Source: a virus. From it: a stretch of DNA of 20,407 nucleotides. The DNA is taken from positions 1-20,407 of the IMG/VR virus record IMGVR_UViG_3300009481_000144; one strand, given 5' to 3'. This document shows positions 110 to 20,152 of this stretch, piece after piece (positions within the stretch are counted from its first letter, which is position 1; every line of letters begins with the position of its first letter). The notes beneath the pieces were generated by a model that saw nothing but the letters and a program-made list of their open reading frames with translations, made no database searches and was not told where the DNA came from. The position numbers and the translations under genes were made by a program.

Positions 110-2089
110 GTGCCTACACTTCCAAAATTTGTAATACATCTTGATAGATTAACCGATGATGTTAATAGACTCTCTTTGTTGATGAATAAGTTTGCATCAG
201 AGATATCATCAGCTGGCTTCTATACGCCTGGCTTCAACTTCTCGATTCAATCAGCTGCTCTTCGGGTATTTCCTGGTGAGTTAGCTTTTTTGATTGAAAA
301 AATGGTTGACGAAACAAGTGATGTGGATATTTTTGGAAATACTTTCCAAGGATATGAATCTTATCAATTTGTTGAGATTGTAGTAGATTCTAGTTTTAAA
401 ACATTAACAGCTATACGCCTTCTCGGCAACACTGAAGAGGAAAGTGAAAAGCAAATACGCTTTGCTTTATTTGATGTTCCAAACACTCTGTTCACTCCTA
501 CTACGATTAATACCGTCTCAGATATTAGAGAGATTTCAGATGGCATAACAGAATTCTTTGGAGGCACTAATGCGCCCGCTGCACGTTGTGGACAAGACAA
601 TAACAGTTTAGAAAATATTGTCGGCAGTTTAGCTGAAAATGTTTTTCCAGAATCAACAGTGCGTTCTGATATGACGTGGAGTGGATATCTTGAACAGTAT
701 GTGGTTCCTAAAGTAAAAACTCAACCTAAACCTTCTACTGGTCTTTCGAGAGACGAATTGAAAGGATTGTTGAACAAATATGAATCAACTTCAATTAAGA
801 CAGAGGCAGACAGGCTAGCAGAAGAAGCAGAATGGTCAAGTGTTGCTTTTAAAGGTAGAGTAACAGCTTCACGCCAAAACGCTGTAGATATTGTTAATGC
901 TTCTGCTGAGATTTTAGCTGATCCAGAAGGACTTTCAGCAAAGATTCAAACTCTTGGCGATGCATATTCTCAAATATTAGATAAAGTTTCTCTAGGGTGT
1001 TTGATTAAGTCTGCTATGGAATGTATTATTCCTCCTTTAACCTGTAAAGAAATACTTCACGGCTTGAGCATTGAAAATATTGAAGAGAAAATATCCCTCG
1101 CTTTTCCAAACATTCCTCGGCTTGCTGATAGGATAAAAGAAGAATCTATTAAGGCTAAAGCAGAAAATCCAGATGCGACGGCAGCTGCCGATGCTTTTCT
1201 TAATAGTATTGAGACTTTTGTTGATTTAGAAGCTATTTGCGATGCTGTAAGCTTTGCTGCCGGTGGTGGCTTCCAGATACCTACTATCGAACTTCCAGAA
1301 GTAGATATCGTTGATTTATTTGGTAGCGTTGAGATTGCCATCGAAGACGCTATTATGACTGCTTTAACAACGGCTATTGTTGAGATGATTACTGGCGTGT
1401 TGGACGATTTGTTGTCTTGCGATAATTTAGATGCTTTTGTCGCAGGCGCCATTAACGGTGAAATCCCAACAGATACTGCTCTTGGTTCTGATTTGAATAA
1501 ATTGTTTTCTGAACCTACATCATTGGTTGATCCTGAGGTTGGCGCAATCGCTTCTAGTCTTGCAGGTCGATGGGAAAACTTTGTCAACAAAGTTGATGGT
1601 CTTTTGGAAAACTCTGTAAAAGTTGAGATTGACGCAGGCGCTGACATCCTTGGAGATGTAGTCCAACTACGTGCCCAAATAGATGCCGCAGGCGGTCTGG
1701 AAGGCTTACAGGAAGCCATAGAGGGTAACATAGGTAAGGCTGCGTCTCGCGCTGCATTTGAAAGTTTCTTTCAAGGGCATATTGATTTAACTAAGCTGTT
1801 GAGATTTAGTGGCGACGAAAATGCAGATGTATTAAACTTTCTTGTTGCAGAAATAGGACAGTTTGAAATCAGCGCAGATAAAAACAGCTTTACGCTTGAT
1901 CGAATCAATGGCGAACAAACGATGGTTATTTTTAGTGCTTTGGCAAATGCACCAGCTTCTAATCTTAATGTCAACGGCAGAGATTTAGCCAACTCTATTG
2001 GTCTTTTGTTGGACGATGTTGCAGCTATTTTATCGCCAGGAGATGTTTTAAACCTTCTTGCAGGTACTCCAAAAAAGAAAACAGTTTAA
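110..2089 (+). CDS. Helix-rich phage structural protein of unknown function (659 aa)
   Basis: This 659-residue protein starts at GTG, one base after the previous stop. I do not recognise a named domain. Residues 1-150 look mixed alpha/beta. Residues 210-350 are charged and helical. Residues 293-440 hold most of the cysteines (C297, C305, C312, C377, C437), with a compact CLIKSAMECIIPPLTC block at 297-312. A hydrophobic stretch near 395-435 alternates with acidic residues, which fits a long amphipathic helix or a helical bundle better than a membrane span. There is no signal peptide, and the protein ends in a short basic tail (KKK). Position upstream of the gp25/gp6 wedge genes suggests a virion role, perhaps at the hub, tube end or baseplate; this is inferred from context. 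Its stop codon lies in the same frame as the next gene. Confidence 0.75.
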   Translation: MPTLPKFVIHLDRLTDDVNRLSLLMNKFASEISSAGFYTPGFNFSIQSAALRVFPGELAFLIEKMVDETSDVDIFGNTFQGYESYQFVEIVVDSSFKTLTAIRLLGNTEEESEKQIRFALFDVPNTLFTPTTINTVSDIREISDGITEFFGGTNAPAARCGQDNNSLENIVGSLAENVFPESTVRSDMTWSGYLEQYVVPKVKTQPKPSTGLSRDELKGLLNKYESTSIKTEADRLAEEAEWSSVAFKGRVTASRQNAVDIVNASAEILADPEGLSAKIQTLGDAYSQILDKVSLGCLIKSAMECIIPPLTCKEILHGLSIENIEEKISLAFPNIPRLADRIKEESIKAKAENPDATAAADAFLNSIETFVDLEAICDAVSFAAGGGFQIPTIELPEVDIVDLFGSVEIAIEDAIMTALTTAIVEMITGVLDDLLSCDNLDAFVAGAINGEIPTDTALGSDLNKLFSEPTSLVDPEVGAIASSLAGRWENFVNKVDGLLENSVKVEIDAGADILGDVVQLRAQIDAAGGLEGLQEAIEGNIGKAASRAAFESFFQGHIDLTKLLRFSGDENADVLNFLVAEIGQFEISADKNSFTLDRINGEQTMVIFSALANAPASNLNVNGRDLANSIGLLLDDVAAILSPGDVLNLLAGTPKKKTV

Positions 2090-2173
2090 GTAATCATTGA
2101 ACTTATTAAGATTAGTTATGAGCAGATTTCTTTTATAAACAAGCCAGATGAAATCATCACCCTGTTTAAGACG
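2090..2173 (+). other. Open in-frame leader before the next gene; possible non-standard start or stop readthrough
   Basis: The 84 bases between the TAA at 2087-2089 and the TTG at 2174 contain no stop in frame 2, the frame of both flanking genes. The 28 codons look like ordinary protein (for example ELIKISYEQISFINKPDE) and contain no ATG, GTG or TTG. ATT at 2096 follows AAG at 2088-2090 with five bases between, the same spacing as AAGG before the ATG at 14387. Initiation at ATT would add 26 residues to the next protein. The alternatives are TTG at 2174, readthrough of the TAA to give a protein of about 1928 residues, or a sequence error. The only nearby ATG (2118) is in another frame and stops after six codons. 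Confidence 0.5.
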
Positions 2174-5100
2174 TTGGGCGATCTTACTGGAACTTCCAAT
2201 ATAAAAGATGGTGTTATCTTAGCATCAAATGTGCGCAGAACAAGAAATATCCCAAGAAAGTTTTGTCCCGAAGATGACGAAGCTATAGTCCTTCAAGAAG
2301 AAATTCTTACTAGAAGCTTTCCACCTGAAGAAGTGCGAACCATTATTGATGAAATCATTGAAAAACGTCGCCTGCGCTATAATGATCTCGGTGATATTTT
2401 GGTTCGTCTTGACCAAGACGATTTTTCTCCAACCGAAGTCTTAGAGCCGATTATTTGTGGTTTAAATCCAGATGGCTCTCGTCCTCCTGTGGTTGATGAT
2501 GCACTTGACATTACCATAAACACTATGTTTGAACCAACAAAAATGGCATTTGATAGAGAGATACCAAGATATCCCGACGCCTTGTCTTCTGAGGACAAAG
2601 TGACAAGAACTATTCCAAGAACTATTAGGCGTTCTGGCAATAGACCTGTCTTCGGAGCTGGCGCAGGGAGTCTATTTGGTTCATTTAATGATTTCATTGG
2701 AAACCTTGGTCTTGAAAGTCCTTTTGGAGAAAACGGAGAAATAGAAGAAGAAGTGGCTAATCCAGAATGGGTGAAGTTAGTATCAGACGGGATGATTCCG
2801 CCAGAAGACGATCCAGGTACTCCTTCTGATCCTTTGGGACCATATACAGCTGGACCACCTATCCAAGTTCAGGATGTTGTTAAGCGAGTTGGTTCCAACT
2901 TTAAGAGAAGCTTCCAGTTTGAAGACGCAGTAGAACTACAACAAGCTGATGTAAACTCGTTTGTGGTTCAAATTAAAGGTTCGCTTCCAGTTCAATCACC
3001 AGTTCAGGATTTCTCACCTTATCCTGCCCCTTCTCCAGAATGGGTTATTTCTTACAAAGAACGAGAGCAAACTTTAAGCTTATCTCTTTCTGCAAACGGT
3101 TCACTTTATTCGACGAGATTTGGTCGCGTCCAATTTTCAGAAAACTTTTATTTCGGTGAAGATTTTAGCAGAGAGTTGTCTCCAGATGTCCGAGAGCGCA
3201 GTGAAGAATTAAACTCTTCTATCAATGGGAATAGTTCTAAACCAGACGTATTTGTTGGCTTAATGCAAGAAAAACTTCGACCCGCTGTTAAGACTAGCGA
3301 AATAGAAAACTTCAACAATTGGTCTAAATCATTTTTCAACGATCGATATGAAGAGTTCGTTAAAAGCTTTATGTCCAATGCTGGCAGAAGAGTGGCAAAC
3401 AATAGGTTGTTGAAGAAGATCCCTAATCGCACTTTAGACAACTTGGGACCAGGAACATCTGAGTTTAGTTCAAAAGAGCAAGCCGAAACACTAATCATCA
3501 ACTTGATTAATTTTTCCGCAACCCCAACAGATGAACAAAAAAGGTGTAAAGCTGACCCTCACTTGCTAGATTTAGAATTCATTAAATCTGTTGTGAAAGA
3601 TGAATACGACAAAGATTGTGAAACAGAAAATAATAACAATGGAATTAGCCGCGCACGCGGACCCATTAACTCTTCTGGTTATGTTGGCGTAGTTTTAACT
3701 ATTATTCGCTTGTATGTTATCGAATATGTGATGCGCGGCTTGTTTGTTTTTGATGAATATGGTTATAAAACTGACTTTGCCAACGATCAGCTGTTGATTA
3801 GTTACATTGCTTTTAGGTTAAAGAGGGATATTGGCAGACAGGGCGAACTAGCTCCAGGTGTCAGATATTATGATGCTTTTGAAACAGAAATGAAGATTGT
3901 TTACGATAAGCTCGTTACGAACAAAGAGTTTGATATCCCCAATGAACCACTTCCAGAGCCAAGTGCTGATGGTGTTCCTTCTGAGCTTAAGGTGCTCGTT
4001 AGAGAACAGCTAAAGTCTGTTCTTGAAAAAGTGGGAGACATTATTGGAATAAACCCTAAAAATGTTGGTAATAATCTCGTTCAAGATTTGGTAAGCAATA
4101 TTCCTGTTTTAGATACTTATTCTGATTTTGAAGCCGATTCAGGTTTTACATCTTTTAACTCAAGAATGGATTCATTGTTTGAGCCAATAAAGAAAGACAG
4201 TATTCCATTCCCGCCTTCACCTCTTGAGCCAGAGTCAATCGTTATTGAAAGTGATGAGGGAAAATACATTGTTGAAAGATATGTGAGAGTGACCCTATCT
4301 TCAGATGTTTCAGTAGCACAAGAACAAGGCGCGAACGGCTTGCACGGAGTAGTTAATCTGCAAAACTGGGAAGAATTTATTGACAACAATCCATCAATAA
4401 AAGAAGAGAATATTTCCGATCTTTGGGAAGAGCCTTGGAGATACGGATACAGAATGGTTTTTGTTTCTCCCACTCTTGAGGATTCGAGAACTAAAGAGCA
4501 GCTAAACAATGTGGGAAAAAGTTTTGTTCTATCTGGTGGCAATAAAGTTGAGTTGAAAAGTTCACTTTCTGACGTTGAAAAAGCATTTCACGTCTTGGAA
4601 AAAGAAGAAAAAGAGGTGGAAGATTCTACTATAATTCCTCCTGCAACTTTCAAACAATTTAATACAGTTCCAATTTCTCAAGTCGAGATTCCTATTGATG
4701 ATTTCGGTAAAGTTGGTGAAGCAGAAGGAAAGATTAAGAGCCTCTTTCAGGAAAAATATGCCCCTTCTCTTATTAAAGATTTAGCTAATAGTTTAGATTC
4801 GCGCACATTGTTCGACTATTGTTTCTTGTCTAAGAGATTGGTAACCTTTATGTTGATTCAAAGTTCTATGGTTCTTAATAGCGAAGATATGAAATTCTTA
4901 TTTGAAGGAACTAAAATTGAACTTAAGAGACTGTTCAATGCTCTTCGCAATATGGGAGATTATACAAGTCGCAATGAAGAACAGCTTCTAAACGGAGTTC
5001 CTGGTAATGCAGGTGCATATAAAGCAGACTTTGATCAAATCGGAAGCCCATCGGGTCCACGAGGACCAGACGCTTTTTATCTTGCTTCTATCACGCCTAT

Positions 5101-5896
5101 CTTGATTATTCGTGGTCTTGCAGAAATGTCTGACCCTAACATCGCAGTCACAGCAAAGGTAGTCGCAGCTGGCAATTCGGGATATTTGATTCCTAAATTT
5201 GTACGTAATGGTGACGGTACGATTAAGCTATCTGGCACTGAAGAGGAACCAGGTCAGCCAGTTATTCAATATTCGCCTATTGGTGTTGTGGCTCCAGATG
5301 AATTTGAGTGTATTGTGAGAGGCTCCGACGAAGAGTTGCCAGATTTTGTTGAAAATGGCACTTTGGTTGATTGGAAATCACCTGATGTTCCTATTATTCC
5401 GGGTCTTCCACCTTTGGAACTTCCAGATTTGGGGCAGCCGTTATTTATTCCACGCGGTCCAGCTGGTCCTAATGGTATCCCACTGATTTATGGTCTGGAC
5501 AGAAGTCCTAGTGCTGAAGATCCTAACGCTATTGTGGCAAGTTTGCCAGAGTTCCCTGGCGAGTCTGTTAACCTTCCATACGGCTTAGTGTCGATGGCTT
5601 TGCTTCCACTTCAGTTATTTTTCCCAATGCTTGGTCCATTTACGGGTCCTCCTTATAATATGCTTATTGCTTTGGGGCTCGATTTCCTTCGATTAGAACC
5701 TTTGATTTATCAACTACCAAATTACAAATTTGCTTTTGAGAAAACAGATGTTGCCGAAGAGCTTTTGGCTGCTGAAGGTATTGATTTGAGTGGCGGAAGC
5801 AAGGTTAAATGTAAGGATGGTACTAATCCACCAACTTCAGAACCAGAAGTTCTTCCACCAGATCCGAATCTGCCTCCACGAAGTGATAATTGTTAG
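2174..5896 (+). CDS. Large phage structural protein of unknown function, probable baseplate component (at least 1240 aa)
   Basis: The gene is given here from TTG at 2174, but its frame is open back to 2090 and translation may begin earlier (see 2090-2173). TTG 2174 has only a weak AAG before it. No known domain is recognised. Residues 1-100 are charged and helical. Residues 160-240 are rich in Gly, Pro and acidic residues and look like a flexible linker. Residues 285-330 hold beta-like sequence. A block RCKADPHLLDLEF lies near residue 455. About 1080-1130 is Pro/Gly-rich, with a short collagen-like GPAGPNGIP. About 1137-1175 is strongly hydrophobic, and the end is a proline-rich tail closing on Cys. 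It stops at TAG, with an in-frame TGA two codons later. It directly precedes the gp25-like gene, so a baseplate or hub role is likely but inferred. The hydrophobic segment could pack into the virion or contact membrane. Confidence 0.72.
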   Translation: MGDLTGTSNIKDGVILASNVRRTRNIPRKFCPEDDEAIVLQEEILTRSFPPEEVRTIIDEIIEKRRLRYNDLGDILVRLDQDDFSPTEVLEPIICGLNPDGSRPPVVDDALDITINTMFEPTKMAFDREIPRYPDALSSEDKVTRTIPRTIRRSGNRPVFGAGAGSLFGSFNDFIGNLGLESPFGENGEIEEEVANPEWVKLVSDGMIPPEDDPGTPSDPLGPYTAGPPIQVQDVVKRVGSNFKRSFQFEDAVELQQADVNSFVVQIKGSLPVQSPVQDFSPYPAPSPEWVISYKEREQTLSLSLSANGSLYSTRFGRVQFSENFYFGEDFSRELSPDVRERSEELNSSINGNSSKPDVFVGLMQEKLRPAVKTSEIENFNNWSKSFFNDRYEEFVKSFMSNAGRRVANNRLLKKIPNRTLDNLGPGTSEFSSKEQAETLIINLINFSATPTDEQKRCKADPHLLDLEFIKSVVKDEYDKDCETENNNNGISRARGPINSSGYVGVVLTIIRLYVIEYVMRGLFVFDEYGYKTDFANDQLLISYIAFRLKRDIGRQGELAPGVRYYDAFETEMKIVYDKLVTNKEFDIPNEPLPEPSADGVPSELKVLVREQLKSVLEKVGDIIGINPKNVGNNLVQDLVSNIPVLDTYSDFEADSGFTSFNSRMDSLFEPIKKDSIPFPPSPLEPESIVIESDEGKYIVERYVRVTLSSDVSVAQEQGANGLHGVVNLQNWEEFIDNNPSIKEENISDLWEEPWRYGYRMVFVSPTLEDSRTKEQLNNVGKSFVLSGGNKVELKSSLSDVEKAFHVLEKEEKEVEDSTIIPPATFKQFNTVPISQVEIPIDDFGKVGEAEGKIKSLFQEKYAPSLIKDLANSLDSRTLFDYCFLSKRLVTFMLIQSSMVLNSEDMKFLFEGTKIELKRLFNALRNMGDYTSRNEEQLLNGVPGNAGAYKADFDQIGSPSGPRGPDAFYLASITPILIIRGLAEMSDPNIAVTAKVVAAGNSGYLIPKFVRNGDGTIKLSGTEEEPGQPVIQYSPIGVVAPDEFECIVRGSDEELPDFVENGTLVDWKSPDVPIIPGLPPLELPDLGQPLFIPRGPAGPNGIPLIYGLDRSPSAEDPNAIVASLPEFPGESVNLPYGLVSMALLPLQLFFPMLGPFTGPPYNMLIALGLDFLRLEPLIYQLPNYKFAFEKTDVAEELLAAEGIDLSGGSKVKCKDGTNPPTSEPEVLPPDPNLPPRSDNC

Positions 5897-5923: not shown

Positions 5924-6298
5924 ATGTCTGGATTAACACCAAAACTACCACTCTCATTTGGCGACAAGCCAAGCTATCAATCTATTGACACTACTAAGGA
6001 ATTGGTCAAACAAAATCTGAAAAATCTTTGTTTGACTGTTCCAGGCGAACGATTAATGGACGCAGATTTTGGAGTTGGAATAAAGACTTTTCTTTTTGAG
6101 CAAAGTGTAGCATCAGTTTATGGCGATATATCTGCAAAAATTGAAGAACAAGTTAACATTTATATGCCTTTTGTCGATATAGACGAGATTGTTATTACTC
6201 CAGATTCTGATGATGAAGGGATAATCTATGTGCAGGTACAATATTTTATTGTCCCCACTTCAGAAGAAGATATTCTTAATCTGTCTGTTAATAGATAA
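5924..6298 (+). CDS. gp25: gp25-like baseplate wedge protein
   Basis: This 124-residue protein matches the length and pattern of the T4 gp25 / type VI secretion TssE family. These small proteins sit in the baseplate wedge beside gp6 and gp7 and contact the first sheath ring, helping trigger contraction. Visible family features are a helix leading to NLKNLCLTVPGER (31-43), the DADFGVG turn (46-52), TFLFE (55-59), a second helix (67-80) and C-terminal strands (86-110). The family's usual EPR motif, expected just after the second helix, reads MPF at 81-83, so its Glu and Arg are missing. The gene has a strong ribosome binding site and is followed immediately by the gp6/J-like gene, the usual pairing. 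Assignment to the family is confident; equivalence in mechanism is inferred. Confidence 0.92.
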   Translation: MSGLTPKLPLSFGDKPSYQSIDTTKELVKQNLKNLCLTVPGERLMDADFGVGIKTFLFEQSVASVYGDISAKIEEQVNIYMPFVDIDEIVITPDSDDEGIIYVQVQYFIVPTSEEDILNLSVNR

Positions 6299-6327: not shown

Positions 6328-8124
6328 ATGACGCGCAAAAACATATTTATCAACTATTCTGGTAGAGATTTCGAATCCATCAAGGCTTCTTTGGTAGAGC
6401 ACGCCAAGAGGTATTATGCAGATACGTTTAAGGACTTTAATGAAGCTGGCTTTGGTGCTCTTGCGTTGGATACTGTTGCTTACACAGGCGACATTCTCTC
6501 CTTTTATTTAGATTATCAAGCTAATGAATCATTTCTTGACTCTTCTAACGAATATGACAATATACTTAGACATGCCAAACCTTTGGGATTTAGACTTCAA
6601 GAAAATCCTTCATCTCACGGTATTGCAACATTCTTTATTTTGGCACCAGCAAACTCTGTTGGTTTGGGACCAGATACTAGATATCTCCCTATTCTAAAGA
6701 GAAACAGCACAATTTCAGCAAAAAATGGAAATAACTTTACATTAATTGAAGATGTTCATTTTGATAATCCTGACAATGAAATAGTAGTAGGTCGTGTCGA
6801 CGCTGATACAGGGTTGCCAACTTATTATGCGGTGCGAGCTTATGGGCGAGTAGTTTCTGGTAGACTAGAAGAAGCATTGATTACAGTCGGAGATTATCAG
6901 AGATTTTTAAAAGTATTGGTTGATGTAGGAAACGTAGCCGAAGTTATTCTCGTTGAAGATGCAGAAGGCAACGAATATTATCAAGTAGATTATCTTTCTC
7001 AAGATGTCGTCTATCGCCCTGTGTTGAATCGCTCAAGCACTAGCCAACAAGCGCCAGATATCTTAAAGCCTTTTATTGTTCCCCGCCGTTTCGTTGTGGA
7101 CAATCTACAAGGACAAACATATCTTCAATTTGGTCACGGCGCAGATGATTCTGACAGAACTTCAGAAAGAATCGTAGACCCAAGCCGAGTAGTGCTGAAT
7201 GTTCACGGTAGAACTAGTATTTCTGATACATCATTTGATCCTTCCAACTTAATTAAGACTGATAAGTTTGGAGTTGTACCCTCTAGCACTACTTTGAGAG
7301 TGATCGTGAGAGCCAACACTATCGACGATGTTAACGCAGCAGCAGACACGGTAACAGGAATACTTTCTGCTGACTTTGATTTTGATGATATTTCCACACT
7401 TGATAGCTCGTTGGTGAACTCAGTAAAAGCTTCAATCGAAGTTACCAATGAAGAACCTATTGTTGGGGATGTTTCATTGCCGAATGCAGAAGAATTAAAG
7501 ATTCGTGTTTTCAACTCTTTTGCTGCTCAAAACCGAGCTGTCACCCTTCAGGATTACGCAGCTTTGACATACAAGATGCCTGCCGAGTTTGGCGCTGTAA
7601 AGCGCGTAAATGTTGTAAGAGACCCAGACTCTTTTAAGAGGAATCTAAATCTATATGTTGTTTCTGAAAACCAAGATGGGACATTAGCTGAAACTTCCTC
7701 AACAATCAAAGAGAACTTAAAAGTTTGGCTAAACAAGAATAGAATGATCAATGATACAATTGACATTTTGGATGCTAGAATTGTGAATATTGGAGTAAAC
7801 TACAAAGTGATTGGAGATTTGGAGAGAGACAAATACGACATTCTAGCTGATGCCAACTTTGCAATAGCTACCCTACTTAACGAGGTTAAGGATATTGGAG
7901 AATCCTTCTTTATCACAGACATTTATGATGCTTTGAAAAGGGTTACAGGTGTTGTAGACGTTACAAACGTTAAAGTCTTTCAGAAGGTAGGTGGTGTTTA
8001 TTCCGACATTCGTTTCAATATAAACGAACAAACATCTTCAGACGGTCGCTTCATTAAAGCGCCACAAAACGTGATTTTCGAAGTGAAATACGTCAAAGAC
8101 GACATTAAGGGAGCAATTAGATAA
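6328..8124 (+). CDS. gp6: gp6 / baseplate J-like wedge protein
   Basis: At 598 residues this protein is close to T4 gp6 (about 660) and longer than P2 gpJ. This family forms the ring of dimers that ties baseplate wedges together around the hub and rearranges at contraction. The N-terminal helical part has the family pattern: a short strand, SGRDFESIKASL (11-22), then FGALALDTVAYTGDILSFYLDYQANESFL (split across 43-70). A beta-rich middle includes YLQFGHG at 265-271, where relatives often have FGNG, and DKFGVVPSSTTLRV at 312-325. The C-terminal J-type domain has QNRAVTLQDYAALTYKMP (401-418) and FFITDIYDALKRVTGV (527-542). It follows the gp25-like gene, and its TAA overlaps the next ATG by one base. 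The family call is strong. Confidence 0.91.
   Translation: MTRKNIFINYSGRDFESIKASLVEHAKRYYADTFKDFNEAGFGALALDTVAYTGDILSFYLDYQANESFLDSSNEYDNILRHAKPLGFRLQENPSSHGIATFFILAPANSVGLGPDTRYLPILKRNSTISAKNGNNFTLIEDVHFDNPDNEIVVGRVDADTGLPTYYAVRAYGRVVSGRLEEALITVGDYQRFLKVLVDVGNVAEVILVEDAEGNEYYQVDYLSQDVVYRPVLNRSSTSQQAPDILKPFIVPRRFVVDNLQGQTYLQFGHGADDSDRTSERIVDPSRVVLNVHGRTSISDTSFDPSNLIKTDKFGVVPSSTTLRVIVRANTIDDVNAAADTVTGILSADFDFDDISTLDSSLVNSVKASIEVTNEEPIVGDVSLPNAEELKIRVFNSFAAQNRAVTLQDYAALTYKMPAEFGAVKRVNVVRDPDSFKRNLNLYVVSENQDGTLAETSSTIKENLKVWLNKNRMINDTIDILDARIVNIGVNYKVIGDLERDKYDILADANFAIATLLNEVKDIGESFFITDIYDALKRVTGVVDVTNVKVFQKVGGVYSDIRFNINEQTSSDGRFIKAPQNVIFEVKYVKDDIKGAIR
8107..8113 (+). promoter_or_regulatory. Ribosome binding site of the propeller gene, inside the upstream gene
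   Basis: AAGGGAG lies ten bases before the ATG at 8124, inside the last codons of the gp6/J-like gene. Stop and start share one base (TAATG), an arrangement typical of translational coupling. Confidence 0.6.
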
Positions 8125-10655
8125 TGGGAATCAAGAGGTTCGTAGCAGACAAAGACGCAACTATTACAGATGCATTTAAGGAAAATCTTACCACTAGAGC
8201 TTCAGAAGCCAATATGGGCGCCAGTGATGTGCTTGAAGTGTTTTCTATCTTTGGACAAGCCGAATCTACTCCTACGACACTCGGTGATGACACTTACGAT
8301 CTTGAAAATAGATTTGAGTCAAGTTCATCTGGGTTCGGTGCAAATATCAGTAGATTTGATGATAAAGTGTTTGTTACATCGGCGGAAACTATTTTTTCCC
8401 GTTCTCAAGCCGGAGCCGTGTATATTTACAATAGTAGTAGCACTGGTTGGGAATTTGAACAGAAAATTACCTCTTCCACTCCAGAAGTGAACGCTAGGTT
8501 CGGCGAAAAAACTCAAGGTTATGAAGGTCATGTGTTGGTTTCTAGTGCTTTTACGACTGCCGTTGATGGTACAGGATCAGTTGAGGATTTTGCTAGCGGT
8601 AGTAATGGTTGGGTTTCCACACAAAAGTTTAGTGGCTCTGCCTTGACGGCATCTTCTTCGCATTTCGGTGCTTCTATGGATTTAGAATCAACAACTATGA
8701 AACTGTTAGTTGGAGGCTACGGTTCTGATAGAGCTTTTGTATTCAAAAGCGGTAGTGCTGGCTGGACTGAAGAAGCTGCTCTATCTGGTTCTTTGGTGGC
8801 TGGTCCTTTGGCTTTTGGTTTTAATCTTGCTATTAGTGGCGCATACGCTGCAATCGGGTCTGGTTTTGATAATAAGTATTTTGCTTATGCTGGAGCTGGC
8901 TATGTTTTTAAGAGTGGCAGCACTGGTTGGCTTGAAGAAGCCCATATTACAAGTTCAGACTTGGCGGCATATGATTATTTCGGTGCTGGAATTGATATAG
9001 ACAAGGGCAAAATAGTTATTACTTCTTTTGGAGACGCCTCCGCCGCTGGCGCTGCATATATTTTTAACAGCAGCAGCACCGGTTGGACCCAAGAAGAAAA
9101 ATTAGTTGCAGATGTAAGTTTTGCTGGGCTTGAGTTTGGTATAGAAGCACAGATAAAAGACAATCGTGCTTTCATTGGTTCAAGAGATTCTAGTGGTGGA
9201 CTCTATGTTTTTGATAGCGGTAGTTCTGGTTGGACACAAACATTTTTCTTAACTGCTTCAACATCTACTTATGCTGCTAAAATTATTTCTTACGGAGATA
9301 ACATTCTAGCCTCTGGCGCTCCCAGCGGCGCCGATATATGGACTTTTAGCCCATTCAGGACTAATCCTGATGCTGTTGAAGCATCCAGAGCATTGTTGCA
9401 ATTTCCAATAGATAATATTGTAACCGATAGAGCAGCAAATACCATTCCTGCTAGTGGTAGTGTTAGTTTTTATCTCAATTTGAGTAACGCTGCTCATGGC
9501 GAGACTACACCTAAAGATTTTGAACTTGTAGTTGCTCCTATGGCAGAAGCTTGGACTGAAGGGTTCGGTTTGGATATGGAAAAATATAAAGATACTGGTC
9601 CTGTCAATTGGATATCAGCTTCAGCAACAACGGTATGGAACAATCCAGGCGGCGACTTCTATTCTTCTCCCGTTTATACTTCAAGTTTTAACCAAGGAGA
9701 TGAAGATTTGAATGTTGATATTACTCCTTTGGTAGAATCTTGGATTGATGGAACAGTGGTGAACAATGGGATTGTAGTTAAACTTACTCCAACTTTTGAA
9801 AGTAGTTCTACTGATTCGTTTTACACGAAACGATTCTTTGGACGCCGAAGTGAGCATTTCTTTAAACTTCCTTGGATTGAGGCACGCTTCGATGACTCAA
9901 TAAAAGACAATAGAAATAGCTTCTATGTGAGCAGTTCTTTTGTTCCTGCCGCAGACAATTTGATGAAGTTGTTCCTTTACAACAGAACAAGAAAAGGATT
10001 GAAAAACATTCCAGCGGTCGGAACTGGTTCAATTTATGTAAGTTTGTTCTCAGGAACTCTTGCACCAACTGGTTCTGAGTTGACACTTTCTACGGGCGCG
10101 ACATCTGTTACTGGTGGTTATAGCGAGGCAGGCATTTATTCGGCTTCAGTTGCAATTGACACGCAACACAAGTGGCTTTTCGATGTTTGGCACAACAATT
10201 TGACTGGTGCATCCAGGGTTGAATACTTCACGGGCAGTGTTATTAATACTATTCAATTTAGTGGCTCTAGCCAATTTGAGATTGATGATTATGCTCTTAA
10301 TATTACTAATATGAAGCCTCAATATTCAACAACCGAAACAGCAAGGTTTAGGGTTTTCACAAGGCTCAAGAACTGGAGTCCCACCATTTACAACTTGGCG
10401 GTTGCAGACATTGAAAATGAAACTATTGAGGATGCTTATTATAAGATCTTCAGAGTGACTGATGATTTTGATGTCATTCCTTACGGAACTGGTAGTGACA
10501 ATCATACTCTTCTTTCATATGATAAAGAAGGTAACTATTTTGATATTGATATGTCTACGTTTGAGCGAGATTATCAGTATGGAATCCAGTTTGTTTTCAA
10601 ACTTGAGGATAAATATTACGAGCAAGAAGAAGTGTTTAAATTTAGGGTGAAGTAA
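8124..10655 (+). CDS. FG-GAP beta-propeller and DNRLRE-like domain protein, probable host-contact or tail-fibre-type protein
   Basis: This 843-residue protein begins with a short segment (1-65), then a propeller of about 50-residue repeats (71-408). Each blade opens with FG and a hydrophobic strand and closes with Ser/Gly-Ser-x-Gly-Trp. FG pairs fall at 71, 126, 181, 231, 286 and 338; the Trp at 109, 163, 214, 269, 321 and 370. A last degenerate unit (385-408, keeping SGAP) makes seven. The pattern fits bacterial FG-GAP repeats without obvious calcium loops. Residues 415-590 look like a DNRLRE domain: SRALLQFPI (421-429), APMAEAWTEG (471-480), ITPLVESWIDG (533-543), NNGIVVKL (547-554) and SFYTKRF (565-571). 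Residues 600-843 are beta-rich and unassigned. DNRLRE and FG-GAP folds are common in surface adhesins, so receptor or glycan binding is inferred. It lies between two wedge-type genes, so it is probably attached to the baseplate. Confidence 0.8.
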   Translation: MGIKRFVADKDATITDAFKENLTTRASEANMGASDVLEVFSIFGQAESTPTTLGDDTYDLENRFESSSSGFGANISRFDDKVFVTSAETIFSRSQAGAVYIYNSSSTGWEFEQKITSSTPEVNARFGEKTQGYEGHVLVSSAFTTAVDGTGSVEDFASGSNGWVSTQKFSGSALTASSSHFGASMDLESTTMKLLVGGYGSDRAFVFKSGSAGWTEEAALSGSLVAGPLAFGFNLAISGAYAAIGSGFDNKYFAYAGAGYVFKSGSTGWLEEAHITSSDLAAYDYFGAGIDIDKGKIVITSFGDASAAGAAYIFNSSSTGWTQEEKLVADVSFAGLEFGIEAQIKDNRAFIGSRDSSGGLYVFDSGSSGWTQTFFLTASTSTYAAKIISYGDNILASGAPSGADIWTFSPFRTNPDAVEASRALLQFPIDNIVTDRAANTIPASGSVSFYLNLSNAAHGETTPKDFELVVAPMAEAWTEGFGLDMEKYKDTGPVNWISASATTVWNNPGGDFYSSPVYTSSFNQGDEDLNVDITPLVESWIDGTVVNNGIVVKLTPTFESSSTDSFYTKRFFGRRSEHFFKLPWIEARFDDSIKDNRNSFYVSSSFVPAADNLMKLFLYNRTRKGLKNIPAVGTGSIYVSLFSGTLAPTGSELTLSTGATSVTGGYSEAGIYSASVAIDTQHKWLFDVWHNNLTGASRVEYFTGSVINTIQFSGSSQFEIDDYALNITNMKPQYSTTETARFRVFTRLKNWSPTIYNLAVADIENETIEDAYYKIFRVTDDFDVIPYGTGSDNHTLLSYDKEGNYFDIDMSTFERDYQYGIQFVFKLEDKYYEQEEVFKFRVK
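8334..9347 (+). repeat. Tandem FG-GAP blade repeats within the propeller gene
   Basis: About 150-base units encode blades with a shared FG start and GW end. The codons of the GW motif lie at 8448, 8610, 8763, 8928, 9084 and 9231, giving protein spacings of 54, 51, 55, 52 and 49 residues. DNA around the motif is recognisably repeated (forms of agtggtagcactggttgg), but third-position changes mean the copies have diverged, so this is an old protein repeat rather than a recent DNA duplication. Confidence 0.8.
10644..10650 (+). promoter_or_regulatory. Ribosome binding site of the LamG wedge-like gene, inside the upstream gene
   Basis: AGGGTGA lies six bases before the ATG at 10657, in the last codons of the propeller gene. 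One base separates that gene's TAA from this ATG. Confidence 0.6.
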
Positions 10656-14386: not shown

Positions 14387-17300
14387 ATGACACAAATATT
14401 TGAAACCAAGCACAAAATGCCTTTTGGTGTTGTTAGTTCCTCTGTAAGCACTGGAGCTGATGCTGCCATTTCATCGAGTTTTAAAGCTAATGTAACGATT
14501 GCTAACTTGCACGGAGATAACTATGCGACTTTTGAAGACTCTCCTGCACAAGGTCCGTTTACTGAAGCGCACGTTGGAGGAAACCAACACCGTCACGTTA
14601 GCTTAAATACAGGAAGCGATACGGTAGCTGATAGACCAGAAGCATTTCTTATTAACTTAGAAACTGCTGGCGAGCTTCGTGTTTATGGACCAGATTCTGT
14701 CAATGTCGATCATCCACGAGCTTCTATGTTGAGAGGCAATTCAGCTAAAAGACCTGTCAATATTTCTAACATTAGACACACTACTAGTTCAGTCGTATTG
14801 GGCAACTTCCAGCACGATTATGAGATTGTGCAAACTTCTGGAAGAAGAATCAATAATAGGTTCTTGACTAAAGCTGGTGATATTCCCATCACCTCATCGT
14901 TCTCTACATTTGTAACAAACTTGTCTGAATATAGCTTGCCAGATAGAGACAACACTGGTTCTAACAAATATATCTTTGTCGAAAGATTCAATGCTCCAGG
15001 CGGAACTGACGTAAGTTCACGTGGTGTTCTCGACGTAGAGGCGGAAGAGATTGCACCCAATAATGCTCTCCCTTTCAGAAACTACCTTGTTAGATCGCCT
15101 CTGAGGGGATTCTTTAAACAACACTCAGGACCATTCGGTTTCTCAACTTTGACAGCTGATACAGGAAGTCATTATACAGACGACCCGTCAGCTTCGTATC
15201 ATAAGGTGAATCGCAATGCTTTGGCACGACCTGAAACTTCAACAAAAGAAGGTGGAACAACATATAAGACAGAATATGACAACTGGTTCATTCAACATTC
15301 TATTCCTCGCTCAGACCTTCAATATGCTTGGATTTCAGCTTCAGCGATTACTGCAACTCGTGATTTAGCTGGTTATCAAAGAAGTGGTTCACATACTAAT
15401 AAGGGTGGTGCATTTACTGATATCACATTTGTATCTAGTAGTGAAACTTCTATTCTAGGAACTCTTGTTGAGCATATCGGAATTAATCCACCTGATAAGT
15501 CAGGTGTTTATATTTCACCATTTAAGAACACTCTCTTTAGAGACAAAAGAGTTCTGGAGCTTGACGGTACCACAGAAGCCGCGCTGGGAGGAAATCAGCA
15601 TGTCCACGGTATCGATTTGGGTCCTAATCACGGAAGATGGGATATTCTTTACAAAAGTGGCAAATTCTCAGCAGTTGCTTGGATTAAAGTAGGACTTCAC
15701 GCCGATGCCAATCCATCAATCTTTGCTGACTCTACTAGTTTTATTGATTTTCAAATCAATAGTGGTGCTTTCGGTGATGATGAGCTGAGTCTTCGTGTCA
15801 CGCAGCCAGATTATTCTATTGAAGGAGTTTGGACTACTGTAAAATCAGATTTAAGTTCTTCAATCGCTGGTGGAAATAATGCTTGGACAATGGTTGGAGT
15901 TACTTATGATTCTAACAAAAAAAGTAATGTGCCATCGATTTATGTTGATGGGGTGTTGCAAAAAATCGTAACCAATCAAGTTCCTAACGGAACTGGTTTT
16001 CGAGATGGGATAGCTCTTGGTTATGATTTCTTGAACTTTAGATTTGGTTATAATGGATATAATGCCATAGGAAATCCTTTTAGCGGTTCGATGGCAGAAA
16101 TGAGTGTGTGGGATGATGTCCTTACAACAAAAGAAATGGAAATTTTGTTCAAGGCAACAAAGAACGATAATGCTGCTCCAAAACAGTATGATGAACATCA
16201 AATTGATAAACAATATTCTTCTATGAGGGACAAAATTGTTGCTTGGTACTCAGGGCACGGCGAAGGAATAGGTAGTGTTTTTAACGATCGATATCTCACT
16301 AACTATCCGACCGGAAATGTCCTTCTTGACGTTGCTGGGAAAAACAACTTTCACGGAGTAGTGGGAAATGGCGTAACTCGCCCTTCAACCTCTGCACCTG
16401 GCTCATTCTCGTCCTGGGGTAATAGTGCTGGTGGCTATTCATCTTGGAAACAGACAAGAACTGGAGAACATCCGGTTGTTCGATTTATGAGAAAAAACAA
16501 CTATATCTCAGTACAAGATGAACCAAAGCAGTTTCAAACTCTGTCTACCAATAAGAAGCAAAGAAGTTTCAAAGAGAAAAGAGGACAAACTTCTAGGTTT
16601 TATAAAGAGCCACCTGTTTCTTGTAATAGTAAGCCCCTAGAGCACTTCCTAGTGTTGAAGGGTTCAGTAAATCCACTTCTTGGATACTCAGTTAAATATA
16701 CCCACGCAAACAGCCTTGGAACTTTAGCTAACAAGTCGTTAGCTAAACGTGTTTCTTCGAACAAGAGTGAAGCGCAAATGTACGACAAGCTTTACGAACT
16801 TTATAATGATCCAGACATTGCAGAGTCTAATAACCCTATTTCTAAATTCTTAAAATTGGTTTATAGCGAGAACGTTTTCCCAAGAGAAGAAAACACATTC
16901 TTAGCCAATGCTCGTGCTAGAACCGAATATATCGTTGATGCACCAGGAAACACCTCAGATGGTTATGATCGTCTTTTCGGAACGCAAAGAGCATTTTGGA
17001 GAGATAATATTAATGACAGACACAGGACTCGTGGACGTCATGCCTCTACATTGAATAGTATGGGATTTACGCATATATCATCATCTATTTTTGCCAGTGG
17101 AATGATCTCATCAAGCACTGAATGGCACAATAGTGATTTATCTCTTTTCCCTTTGGATATATTGAGAGACTATCATATTACTAGCGCTGAAGATGGCATC
17201 CTTGGTTTGTCTTACACTAGTGTTTGGGAAGTTAGTTCATTCTATGGTGGAGAGCTTAATGGACAAGATTGGATTATCGCAGCCGCTGGATCAGGCACTT

Positions 17301-20152
17301 TAGCCCCTCCCACCGCAGCCGGCAACGGAATCATCTATCACTACACGAGAGAGACTGCTGTTCGTTTGAATGTCGGCAACGGTATTCAAGAAAATATCAA
17401 GCCTCGCCCGCGATATGTTTCATATTTGGATGGAACTTATGTTGACACAGGTGGTGGTACTGGCGGCGGCACAATTGGTGTAGATCGGGGAACTACTTCT
17501 TCTCTTGATGCTGGTTTACAATGGAGAACTGCTGAACTTGCCGGAAAAAACCCTTGGTATGATTCATACGCAGATTACGCCTTTGATATTCGTTCAATCG
17601 CCAAAGAGAAAAGCATTCTACCAGAGTTCAGAGCTTCTGAGCATATGGATTATTTCATCGTTGACAAAGGAGGAAACTTTAGATCACAAAACAATTCCTT
17701 CTTAACTCTCGATGGCGCCGGCTCTAGAGATGCCAGTGCATTAGCAGAAGAAGATTTGTTTGATAAAGAATTCTTTAGAATCTATTCACACTCAGATGTA
17801 CTCTCTAGGCAAGAGCAAATATCCAAAGAGCATCAAGAAATTGCTGATGTTTCTCGCGTCACGCTAAAAGTAAAAGGTGTTAAAAAACTCCTTCCATACA
17901 ATGGGTTTTACCCCGTTCAGAGAACCGTACAATTGTCTTCTTTGTTATCACAATCTATCGGCTCTCATTTGCGCGGCGGTTATGTAAAGGGAGCTTCTAT
18001 AACCACTCCTGTTACAGCATTAGACGACCCACACGTTTCTGCTGCTAAAATTCATGCTCTTTTGCAATCTTTTTACGCTCCAGGGATCATGTATAATTCA
18101 ATTAAGGCGGGCATCGCAGTGGATTGGGCAACTTACACTGGTTCTTTTGCTGCTATTACACAATCCTTGACTGAGGATATTGTAGAGAATACTTCCACTG
18201 ATAATCAACCTTTTAGATTCTTCCTTAATGATGCTCCTGCTTATAGATTTCCATTTGAAAGCTTGATTTTTCCTAATGCGGGCATTCCCAGACAAAAAGA
18301 TATTGTATTGGAATCAGACACGATTAAAAACTCTATTTTTTCTATCATTCCGACTATAAATGATGTCGCAATGAGAACACCGTTCTTGATTTGGGATCAC
18401 AAAAGGGATTTTCGCTATGAGTTGGCTACGAGCAATTTCTTGGCTGAAGTTCCAAGATTCTTTTTGAAAGATGAAAAGCTATCTTCTTTTTCTTCGGATA
18501 AGAATAGCAAATGGAAGACTTTTGAAGACAATAAAACATATTACATGGATGTTGTTCTCGGTAAGACGAACGATTTTGTTATGATGGAATCATTTTGGAG
18601 CCATCGCCATAAGACAGGCTCCCTCGGCGAGAAGATGAACGGAAGATATTTTGGATTTCCAGTAAACATTTCTGCTTCAGCGCAAGACGCGCCAGACGGC
18701 GCCATTTATGACGGTGCTGCCAAATATTGGCGCCCAGGACAAGATTGTGATCCAGCTTTCGCTGCCTGGACTCCACCTTATTTTGAAGGTGCCGCCACGG
18801 CTAGATTATCATTTACTCCTGCATCCAAGGCGAAATACACCCTCGATGAAGTATTAGCAGAGCTTGTAGTGGAAAACGTATTTCCAGCACTTGATTCTTA
18901 TACAGGTTCAGCTGCTGCAAGCGGTTCAATGCCAGTAGGTTCTTCAGTTAATTTTGAAGGTAGGAGAAGTGACCTAAAAGTTAATTTCAATCTTACCAAA
19001 GGGAAGAAACAAAGGTTCAGTCCCCTCGACGCCACCAACGAATTTTCTTCTGACAATGAAACATGGGTTGTTAGTCCACGTTGGGAGTGTCCAACGTTAA
19101 ACTTCTCCAACCAAGAAGCCAATGTTAAAGCTGAACAAGTCATGACTGCTTCTACTACGTCAGCCTTCAGAAATCTTGGAAACGCATTTTCAGGCAGCGG
19201 CTACGGGCGCGGAATGTGGAGCGGCTATGGAGCCATTCCAACTGGAAGTGAAGGTATTTTCCTTGAACTTCGTGACAGCTTTCCAAAGCTCTTGAAAGGC
19301 GCCCGCGACTCAACTACTGGCTCTCTGATTGAGCAGTGTGGCTTTAAACCTTCCAAGTCTCGTATTGGTGAGCTGGCTGACAGCAAAGAGATTTCAGAAG
19401 CAGTTATCGCTATTCCCTTTCTAGAACAAGCTTCATCGAAGACGGTTGAAATCGGCTGTCATAACGTGATTAAACTCGACAAGAAAGTCTTCAACCTTCA
19501 AAGGAAAAACTTTGAAACTGCTGAACCTGCCATTAAAGTGAACGACCTCGGTAGCAAGGTAGAGATTCAAGAGACCTCTATCACTCAAATGATTGATATG
19601 ATGGAAGAATATGTTATTCCTCCACAGTTTAACTTTTTGGAGTTTGATGACATTCAGCCATTTGCAATGTATATCTTTGAGTTCAAGCACCAGCTCGACA
19701 AGCAAGATCTTGCTGATATTTGGCAGGGTGTTATGCCAAAGATTGCTATGACTCCAGAGAAGGATGAGATTGAGTTCTCACATCCAGCTGGTGAGTTTGA
19801 GTTCTTCGGAAAAGATGGTATCCCAAACAACCTTAAGTGGATGGTTTTCAAAGTTAAGAAGAAAGCAGAGAAAGATTATTTCAAGGTTACTGCTGATTCA
19901 TCAGATGATGACAGGTTTAAGTTCGACTTCGAAGTTGGTCGTAAAGCCCCGGAATACAGCTACAATTGGCCATACGATTTTTTCTCGCTTGTTGAACTTG
20001 GAAAACTTGAGGTTGAACTTGAATATTCCAATAGCAATGAAATCGAAAAACTTCGCCAAACTGAAGCAGCTGGCTCTCAAATAGCAAGCCCTCTAAAAGG
20101 TGGTAGAAACAAACGAGGTTCTAAAGGTAAAGGCAAGAAGTTGACTAAATAA
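14387..20152 (+). CDS. Giant LamG-containing virion protein (1921 aa)
   Basis: This is the largest gene in the window. Residues 1-340 are a Ser/Thr/Gly-rich beta-type region with many His (GGNQHRHVS 64-72) and NWFIQHSIPRSDLQYAWIS at 299-317. Residues 388-588 form a LamG/concanavalin-like domain (VLELDGT 389-395, FSAVAWIKV 427-435, WTMVGVTYD 500-508, SIYVDGVLQ 517-525, MAEMSVWDD 569-577). It is followed at 617-661 by WYSGHGEG and LLDVAGKNNFHG, the same follow-on pattern as in the upstream LamG protein. Later parts look like a long structural scaffold: DIRSIAKEKSILPEFRASEH (1067-1086), LPYNGFYPVQRT (1169-1180) and an alpha/beta domain at about 1745-1850 (PFAMYIFEF 1758-1766). The end is strongly basic (KGGRNKRGSKGKGKK). 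No signal peptide, membrane span, protease or hydrolase motif is evident. A large baseplate or fibre-like protein with a glycan-binding module is inferred from LamG and context. Confidence 0.75.
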   Translation: MTQIFETKHKMPFGVVSSSVSTGADAAISSSFKANVTIANLHGDNYATFEDSPAQGPFTEAHVGGNQHRHVSLNTGSDTVADRPEAFLINLETAGELRVYGPDSVNVDHPRASMLRGNSAKRPVNISNIRHTTSSVVLGNFQHDYEIVQTSGRRINNRFLTKAGDIPITSSFSTFVTNLSEYSLPDRDNTGSNKYIFVERFNAPGGTDVSSRGVLDVEAEEIAPNNALPFRNYLVRSPLRGFFKQHSGPFGFSTLTADTGSHYTDDPSASYHKVNRNALARPETSTKEGGTTYKTEYDNWFIQHSIPRSDLQYAWISASAITATRDLAGYQRSGSHTNKGGAFTDITFVSSSETSILGTLVEHIGINPPDKSGVYISPFKNTLFRDKRVLELDGTTEAALGGNQHVHGIDLGPNHGRWDILYKSGKFSAVAWIKVGLHADANPSIFADSTSFIDFQINSGAFGDDELSLRVTQPDYSIEGVWTTVKSDLSSSIAGGNNAWTMVGVTYDSNKKSNVPSIYVDGVLQKIVTNQVPNGTGFRDGIALGYDFLNFRFGYNGYNAIGNPFSGSMAEMSVWDDVLTTKEMEILFKATKNDNAAPKQYDEHQIDKQYSSMRDKIVAWYSGHGEGIGSVFNDRYLTNYPTGNVLLDVAGKNNFHGVVGNGVTRPSTSAPGSFSSWGNSAGGYSSWKQTRTGEHPVVRFMRKNNYISVQDEPKQFQTLSTNKKQRSFKEKRGQTSRFYKEPPVSCNSKPLEHFLVLKGSVNPLLGYSVKYTHANSLGTLANKSLAKRVSSNKSEAQMYDKLYELYNDPDIAESNNPISKFLKLVYSENVFPREENTFLANARARTEYIVDAPGNTSDGYDRLFGTQRAFWRDNINDRHRTRGRHASTLNSMGFTHISSSIFASGMISSSTEWHNSDLSLFPLDILRDYHITSAEDGILGLSYTSVWEVSSFYGGELNGQDWIIAAAGSGTLAPPTAAGNGIIYHYTRETAVRLNVGNGIQENIKPRPRYVSYLDGTYVDTGGGTGGGTIGVDRGTTSSLDAGLQWRTAELAGKNPWYDSYADYAFDIRSIAKEKSILPEFRASEHMDYFIVDKGGNFRSQNNSFLTLDGAGSRDASALAEEDLFDKEFFRIYSHSDVLSRQEQISKEHQEIADVSRVTLKVKGVKKLLPYNGFYPVQRTVQLSSLLSQSIGSHLRGGYVKGASITTPVTALDDPHVSAAKIHALLQSFYAPGIMYNSIKAGIAVDWATYTGSFAAITQSLTEDIVENTSTDNQPFRFFLNDAPAYRFPFESLIFPNAGIPRQKDIVLESDTIKNSIFSIIPTINDVAMRTPFLIWDHKRDFRYELATSNFLAEVPRFFLKDEKLSSFSSDKNSKWKTFEDNKTYYMDVVLGKTNDFVMMESFWSHRHKTGSLGEKMNGRYFGFPVNISASAQDAPDGAIYDGAAKYWRPGQDCDPAFAAWTPPYFEGAATARLSFTPASKAKYTLDEVLAELVVENVFPALDSYTGSAAASGSMPVGSSVNFEGRRSDLKVNFNLTKGKKQRFSPLDATNEFSSDNETWVVSPRWECPTLNFSNQEANVKAEQVMTASTTSAFRNLGNAFSGSGYGRGMWSGYGAIPTGSEGIFLELRDSFPKLLKGARDSTTGSLIEQCGFKPSKSRIGELADSKEISEAVIAIPFLEQASSKTVEIGCHNVIKLDKKVFNLQRKNFETAEPAIKVNDLGSKVEIQETSITQMIDMMEEYVIPPQFNFLEFDDIQPFAMYIFEFKHQLDKQDLADIWQGVMPKIAMTPEKDEIEFSHPAGEFEFFGKDGIPNNLKWMVFKVKKKAEKDYFKVTADSSDDDRFKFDFEVGRKAPEYSYNWPYDFFSLVELGKLEVELEYSNSNEIEKLRQTEAAGSQIASPLKGGRNKRGSKGKGKKLTK

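Follow-up and report, generated by a model that had tools for sequence, protein, structure and literature searches.

Organization of the locus

The window, i.e., the whole stretch of 20,407 bases that was analysed, is a record of an uncultured tailed phage. The open reading frame (ORF) under study encodes a protein of 843 aa, and its start overlaps the last base of the gene of a gp6-like baseplate wedge protein (Table 1). In the original prediction, the feature was placed between a gp6-like and a gp7/gpI-like gene. The upstream part of this placement holds, with the gp25-like and gp6-like genes directly preceding; however, the gp7/gpI label of the following gene, encoding 1240 aa, found no support in any profile library searched. 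The 1240-aa protein is weakly similar to the large protein at the same position in Flavobacterium phage immuto, Microcystis phage Mel-JY01, and LR756508. The span first given to the feature, 8334-9920, needs correction, as the gene and the propeller have other borders and two more domains extend to aa 843 (Table 1).

Further upstream, positions 110-5896 of the window contain two ORFs in one frame (110-2089 and 2174-5896), with one in-frame TAA codon (2087-2089) between them, where the related loci L010, L083/L197, and L015 have an unbroken gene of 1948-2212 aa. The interruption may reflect a split gene, a nonsense codon, or an assembly error.

Table 1. Genes of the baseplate cluster in the window and predicted domains of the 843-aa protein.
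Feature	Position (nt)	Strand	Evidence and remarks
gp25-like baseplate wedge protein	5924..6298	+	PF04965, E 6.7e-11; phrog_261
gp6-like baseplate wedge protein	6328..8124	+	phrog_219, E 7.3e-17; TIGR02243, E 1.5e-11, below cut-off
Whole gene under study: gp6-adjacent conserved baseplate-cluster protein with inserted propeller	8124..10655	+	843 aa; directly after gp6 in 75/75 testable relatives
Initial strands of DNRLRE/CBM96-type jelly roll, as far as the insertion loop	8124..8282	+	aa 1-53; aligns to HMM positions 1-49 of propeller-free relatives
Closed seven-bladed FG-GAP propeller (integrin-alpha type)	8289..9362	+	aa 56-413; PF14312, E 5.1e-16; model; integrin match, Z 34.7
Remaining part of DNRLRE/CBM96-type jelly roll	9372..9893	+	aa 417-590; NF033679 at aa 501-568
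First Ig/MG-like domain	9906..10277	+	aa 595-718; L011 model residues 227-350
C-terminal Ig/MG-like domain	10287..10652	+	aa 722-843; kept in distant phages too; fold match
Conserved neighbour, 1240 aa	10657..14379	+	gp7-like by position and size only; 49-76% identical in relatives

A closed seven-bladed propeller

The original prediction assumed a closed seven-bladed propeller built of six clear blades and one lesser unit, and both the profile search and the structural model bear it out. The sequence contains six repeats of 45-56 aa each and a shorter seventh one, with blade-to-blade identity of 20-49%. The FG-GAP_2 profile (PF14312) matched the 843-aa protein with 59 bits, against a curated cut-off of 23, and three stretches each pass it alone. 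In the AlphaFold2 model of the protein (mean pLDDT 79.8), 28 strands are located within aa 59-407; read four per blade they give seven blades, the strand 59-64 being predicted to complete blade 7 (“velcro” closure). Alignment of aa 56-413 with VIA-align revealed a match to integrin-alpha propellers over 338 aa (rmsd 3.0, approximately 15% identity). At the level of the model, the closed seven-bladed FG-GAP ring is confirmed. DxDxDG, the canonical integrin-type Ca2+ motif, was found nowhere in the 843-aa protein.

Residues 1-50 of this model, for which the fold input consisted of C-terminal alignment fragments, are of low confidence (pLDDT 35-62) and were not used. The geometry of the domain arrangement was taken instead from alignment and from the model of L011, the nearest propeller-free relative, whose core is 67% identical to the window core. 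A full-length MAFFT alignment was rejected because it misplaced the N-terminus beside residue 417.

Nesting of the propeller within a jelly-roll scaffold

The propeller had been described as joined to a DNRLRE-like domain. A DNRLRE-type jelly roll was indeed found, but alignment and model indicate that the propeller is nested within a hairpin loop of this domain and not attached to its end, so that an insert of approximately 360 aa splits the domain into aa 1-49 and 417-590. The insertion point follows the residue equivalent to L011 residue 49, in the hairpin that links strands 36-43 and 51-59, i.e., between jelly-roll strands 3 and 4. Pairwise alignment with the nearest relatives gives a clean boundary: “QASSA”, directly followed by “SLESSR” in L011, corresponds in the window to “QAEST”, the propeller, and “DAVEASR”. 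The placing of the window and L010 inserts at position 0 by hmmalign was considered an artefact, and the pairwise alignment was used instead.

The L011 model, obtained with a 78-sequence alignment, has a pLDDT of 90.4, and its initial jelly-roll segment contains the strands E3-7, E10-16, and E36-43. Residues 1-222 form a jelly roll resembling the chondroitin-sulfate carbohydrate-binding module (CBM) 8wab (Z 18.6, 173/176 aa, rmsd 2.7) and the alginate-binding CBM96 7vbo (Z 15.1). On the sequence level, the DNRLRE profile NF033679 matched aa 501-568 of the window protein with E 4.8e-6 and 26.7 bits, under the cut-off of 34, and it matches 23 of 27 relatives (best E 3.5e-12). A PDB sequence search with the core gave nothing useful. 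The alginate-binding residues of CBM96 are largely N-terminal and line a groove within a loop region (PMC9971899); judged by overall fold, the propeller may sit near this groove.

Beyond residue 222, the L011 model resembles two Ig/MG-like domains, and matches of these domains to complement/A2M proteins were taken as indicating the general MG/Ig fold only. The first of them is absent from distant relatives, e.g., phages immuto and Mel-JY01 (gap in the HMM alignment in L004, L005, and L006). The C-terminal one retains 56-59% identity even with the divergent L037/L052 and is present in Mel-JY01, immuto, and LR756508; it is a candidate for the anchor of the protein in the baseplate.

Conservation of the core protein next to gp6

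Searching viral contigs with the whole window protein as a query revealed no relatives; these were reached via a gp6 search (80 viral contigs) and then via the core alignment. In all 75 contigs extending far enough, the gene after gp6 encodes a relative of the core protein, usually of 470-560 aa, aligning to window aa 1-49 and about 417-843. In total, at least 590 relatives were found in viral contigs. Among those linked to gp6, only L010 has a propeller at the insertion site of the window, and a propeller-only scan yielded L010's record and no other. Distant homologues of the core, of 369-420 aa and lacking the first Ig/MG-like domain, also follow gp6 in immuto, Mel-JY01, and LR756508; the one in immuto is immuto26A_160. 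None of the PHROG profiles covers the core. Gene order suggests that the core would be a structural part of the virion, probably a peripheral component of the baseplate wedge. The combination of FG-GAP and DNRLRE, regarded in the original prediction as typical of bacterial surface proteins, has to be read differently: the DNRLRE part belongs to a conserved baseplate-cluster protein of the phages themselves, and the propeller alone is the newcomer.

Five loci with the core were found in 84,980 prokaryote genomes, mostly on short contigs of metagenome-assembled genomes (MAGs). These loci (L198-L202) carry the labels Neisseriaceae, Actinomycetes, Maricaulis, Poseidoniales, and WOR-3, and the spread of labels together with the short contigs suggests phage sequence binned into MAGs.

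Divergence and exchange of the inserted modules

Between the window and L010, the propeller is 39% identical, as against 72% for aa 1-53, 68-73% for the remaining parts of the protein, 77% for gp6, and 76% for the 1240-aa protein. The mean identity of blades is 0.39 when compared in order and 0.30 out of register. Since blades of the same order match somewhat better, divergence of one inherited propeller is favoured over replacement.

FG-GAP proteins were found in 5 of the 30 related records. In L011, the propeller is carried not by the core protein but by the large protein encoded two genes downstream, at a site corresponding to residues 348-362 of the 1921-aa ORF of the window, just ahead of its LamG domain; in L073, FG-GAP repeats likewise lie in the large downstream protein. 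In the L019 genome, seven FG-GAP matches lie in a 453-aa protein that is encoded separately. The propellers are approximately 30% identical, which is compatible both with one propeller moving between genes and with separate acquisitions. The 453-aa protein (L196, G005:35500-39500) stands alone, far from the baseplate genes of its genome.

A tblastn search with the whole window protein gave FG-GAP-only matches in phages nt-1, S-TIM5, S-TIM61, and Phosso; the three inspected lie outside baseplate clusters, and the matches were ascribed to the repeat family and not to this gene. In Vibrio phage nt-1, an FG-GAP gene is found outside a tail cluster, and Sinorhizobium phage Phosso (L009) encodes a hypothetical protein of approximately 3,700 aa that contains FG-GAP-like repeats; an RNA ligase gene lies a few genes away.

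Large inserts are present in 14 of 126 unique complete proteins of the family and occupy five loop regions (L011 numbering). After residues 45-51 lie the propellers of the window and L010 and domains of approximately 115 aa in L095 and L100; after residues 125-149, a LamG domain in L072 and small domains in L028, L084, L037, and L052; after residues 175-177, an FG-GAP propeller in L033 (PF14312, E 6.2e-37) and a small domain in L075; after residues 192-193, LamG domains in L040, L069, and L081; and after residues 280-332, inserts in L037 and L052. The borders of inserts are fuzzy in L072, L037, and L052. LamG was assigned by profile in L069, L072, and L081, and in L040 by close similarity to L081. 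L033 has the propeller, whereas L025 and L034, 73-75% identical to it in the shared part, lack it; the GC content of the L033 insert is 0.50 vs. 0.42 for the host gene. Placed on the core tree, a quick tree from a sample biased to query-like sequences, the presence of inserts requires nine changes. An insert domain of approximately 110 aa, marked by a GT-x-GN motif and a terminal GG, seems to be common to L095, L100, L028, L084, L037, L052, L075, and L089, with weak similarity across loops; such small domains are likely a third family of shuffled modules.

Comparison with known systems

The closest known principle is the evolved Dit of siphophages, e.g., Skunavirus, in which inserts alter adsorption and host range (PMC10688798). 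In both cases, the N- and C-terminal parts of a conserved protein, located at the tail tip in the case of Dit, align to a shorter, insert-free form. The internal inserts of evolved Dit bind carbohydrates, vary from phage to phage, and assist adsorption (PMC10688798), and the window protein has one feature expected of an evolved Dit, an internal binding-type insert missing from shorter orthologues. However, the scaffold described here consists of a CBM96 fold and Ig/MG-like domains beside gp6/gp25 of a contractile tail, the inserts, integrin-type propellers among them, are spread over five loop regions, and the role is proposed by analogy. No Dit was among the listed fold matches of the core model, the best of which were CBM96 modules.

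The wedge protein Gp119 of the Bacillus myophage Vp4, compared with Deep-Blue Gp177 and A511 gp105, is likewise a wedge protein of a myophage that bears additional carbohydrate-binding folds; its CBMs are missing in a homologue, and it decorates host cells (PMC11406892). The modules of Gp119 are of CBM16 and Xyn10B type, with no propeller, and the conserved wedge domain of A511 gp105/Vp4 Gp119 (6HHK) was absent from the listed fold and sequence matches of the core. It is proposed that the window protein works like evolved Dit and Vp4 Gp119, as a likeness of principle and not of family membership.

With regard to the modules, the likeness to the integrin alpha-subunit beta-propeller lies in the closed ring of seven four-stranded FG-GAP blades; the phage module differs in its low identity and has no DxDxDG, integrin leg, or membrane parts. 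The scaffold shares the jelly-roll fold of CBM96/DNRLRE proteins (7vbo, 8wab; PMC9971899) and the NF033679 matches in relatives, but the window score lies under the cut-off and the domain is interrupted. A beta-propeller reportedly also occurs in the tail-tip receptor-binding protein of Staphylococcus aureus phages phi11 and 80alpha. Their proteins, gene setting, and propeller family differ from those of the window.

Proposed role and alternative explanations

Host recognition by uncultured aquatic myophages is mostly obscure because homology reveals little about their fibres. From the predicted structure, gene order, and the analogies, it is considered likely that the core is located at the periphery of the baseplate and that the propeller is an exposed module for adhesion to the host surface. 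The conserved part would dock into the baseplate, possibly via its C-terminal domain, and the scaffold would hold the propeller outward, on the baseplate exterior. During adsorption, the propeller would bind a polysaccharide or protein of the host surface, and the module may be acquired, dropped, or swapped in step with changing host surfaces. The analysis shows the predicted fold, the nesting, the gene position, the modular variation, and the fast divergence; virion presence, exposure, and host binding are the steps that we infer. The propeller is probably a swappable host grip, because the same spot in related phages is either empty or filled by sugar-binding modules or other inserts. A receptor-binding role is plausible, with indirect support from the gain and loss of modules, their exchange for lectin folds, and their rapid divergence.

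Integrin-type propellers have protein ligands as well as others, and one may ask if the propeller is a protein–protein hub within the particle, attaching a tail fibre or some other adhesin of the phage to the baseplate without contacting the host. The closest folds, integrin-alpha propellers, are protein-binding platforms, and the third wedge protein of A511 and Vp4 anchors fibres and receptor-binding proteins (PMC11406892). This explanation is nevertheless unlikely, given that insert-free orthologues exist, that LamG modules with a lectin fold occur in this protein in relatives, and that the propeller evolves far more rapidly than the neighbouring proteins, contrary to what a conserved interface within the particle would favour. 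The broad-binding types of the modules (FG-GAP, LamG, CBM folds) and their patchy presence among close relatives could also indicate a general decoration that binds particles, mucus, or environmental extracellular polysaccharide with no specific host receptor; however, the location in the wedge cluster, not on the head, and the fast divergence of the module, suggesting a changing specific partner, render it quite improbable.

The capture of a whole bacterial gene for an FG-GAP and DNRLRE surface protein, working outside the baseplate, could be imagined since both domains are common in bacterial surface proteins and the core has no PHROG match. It is already contradicted by gene order, with the propeller-free core following gp6 in every testable relative (75/75) and distant homologues doing so in immuto, Mel-JY01, and LR756508, and with the few prokaryote loci (5 in 84,980 genomes) mostly on short MAG contigs; its probability is close to negligible.

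A broader proposal can be considered, to which an even chance is given: a widespread group of uncultured contractile-tailed phages would use the gp6-adjacent protein as a display frame, several jelly-roll loops of which take interchangeable propellers, LamG lectins, and a small third family, with modules also moving to and from the large gene two downstream. The principle of swappable tail-tip modules is already known, but an integrin-type propeller in a gp6-adjacent multi-socket frame of CBM96 fold was not found in the literature searched, nor was any paper joining FG-GAP with phage baseplates. If true, myophages would have, in this frame, an equivalent of evolved Dit with several insertion sites, in which an integrin-type propeller serves as the host-binding module, and a principle known from siphophages would extend to a T4-like wedge cluster. 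Because the gene position is conserved and modules are cleanly present or absent in close relatives, the family would offer comparable pairs for matching module to ligand, and the gp6-adjacent gene is a marker that can be scanned for in metagenomes.

It would be too strong to call the protein “the receptor-binding protein”, because most relatives are without the propeller and there are other large candidate adhesion proteins, e.g., the product of the LamG-containing 1921-aa ORF. This ORF (window 14387-20152) encodes LamG at aa 423-583 (PF13385, E 4.5e-10). It is 44% identical to its L010 orthologue, vs. 77% for gp6, and this faster divergence makes it a second fast-changing candidate. Its 2521-aa orthologue in L194 (204-7766, minus strand) contains five stretches with significant FG-GAP matches, and near aa 946-996 it also matches a seven-bladed propeller of the lactonase type.
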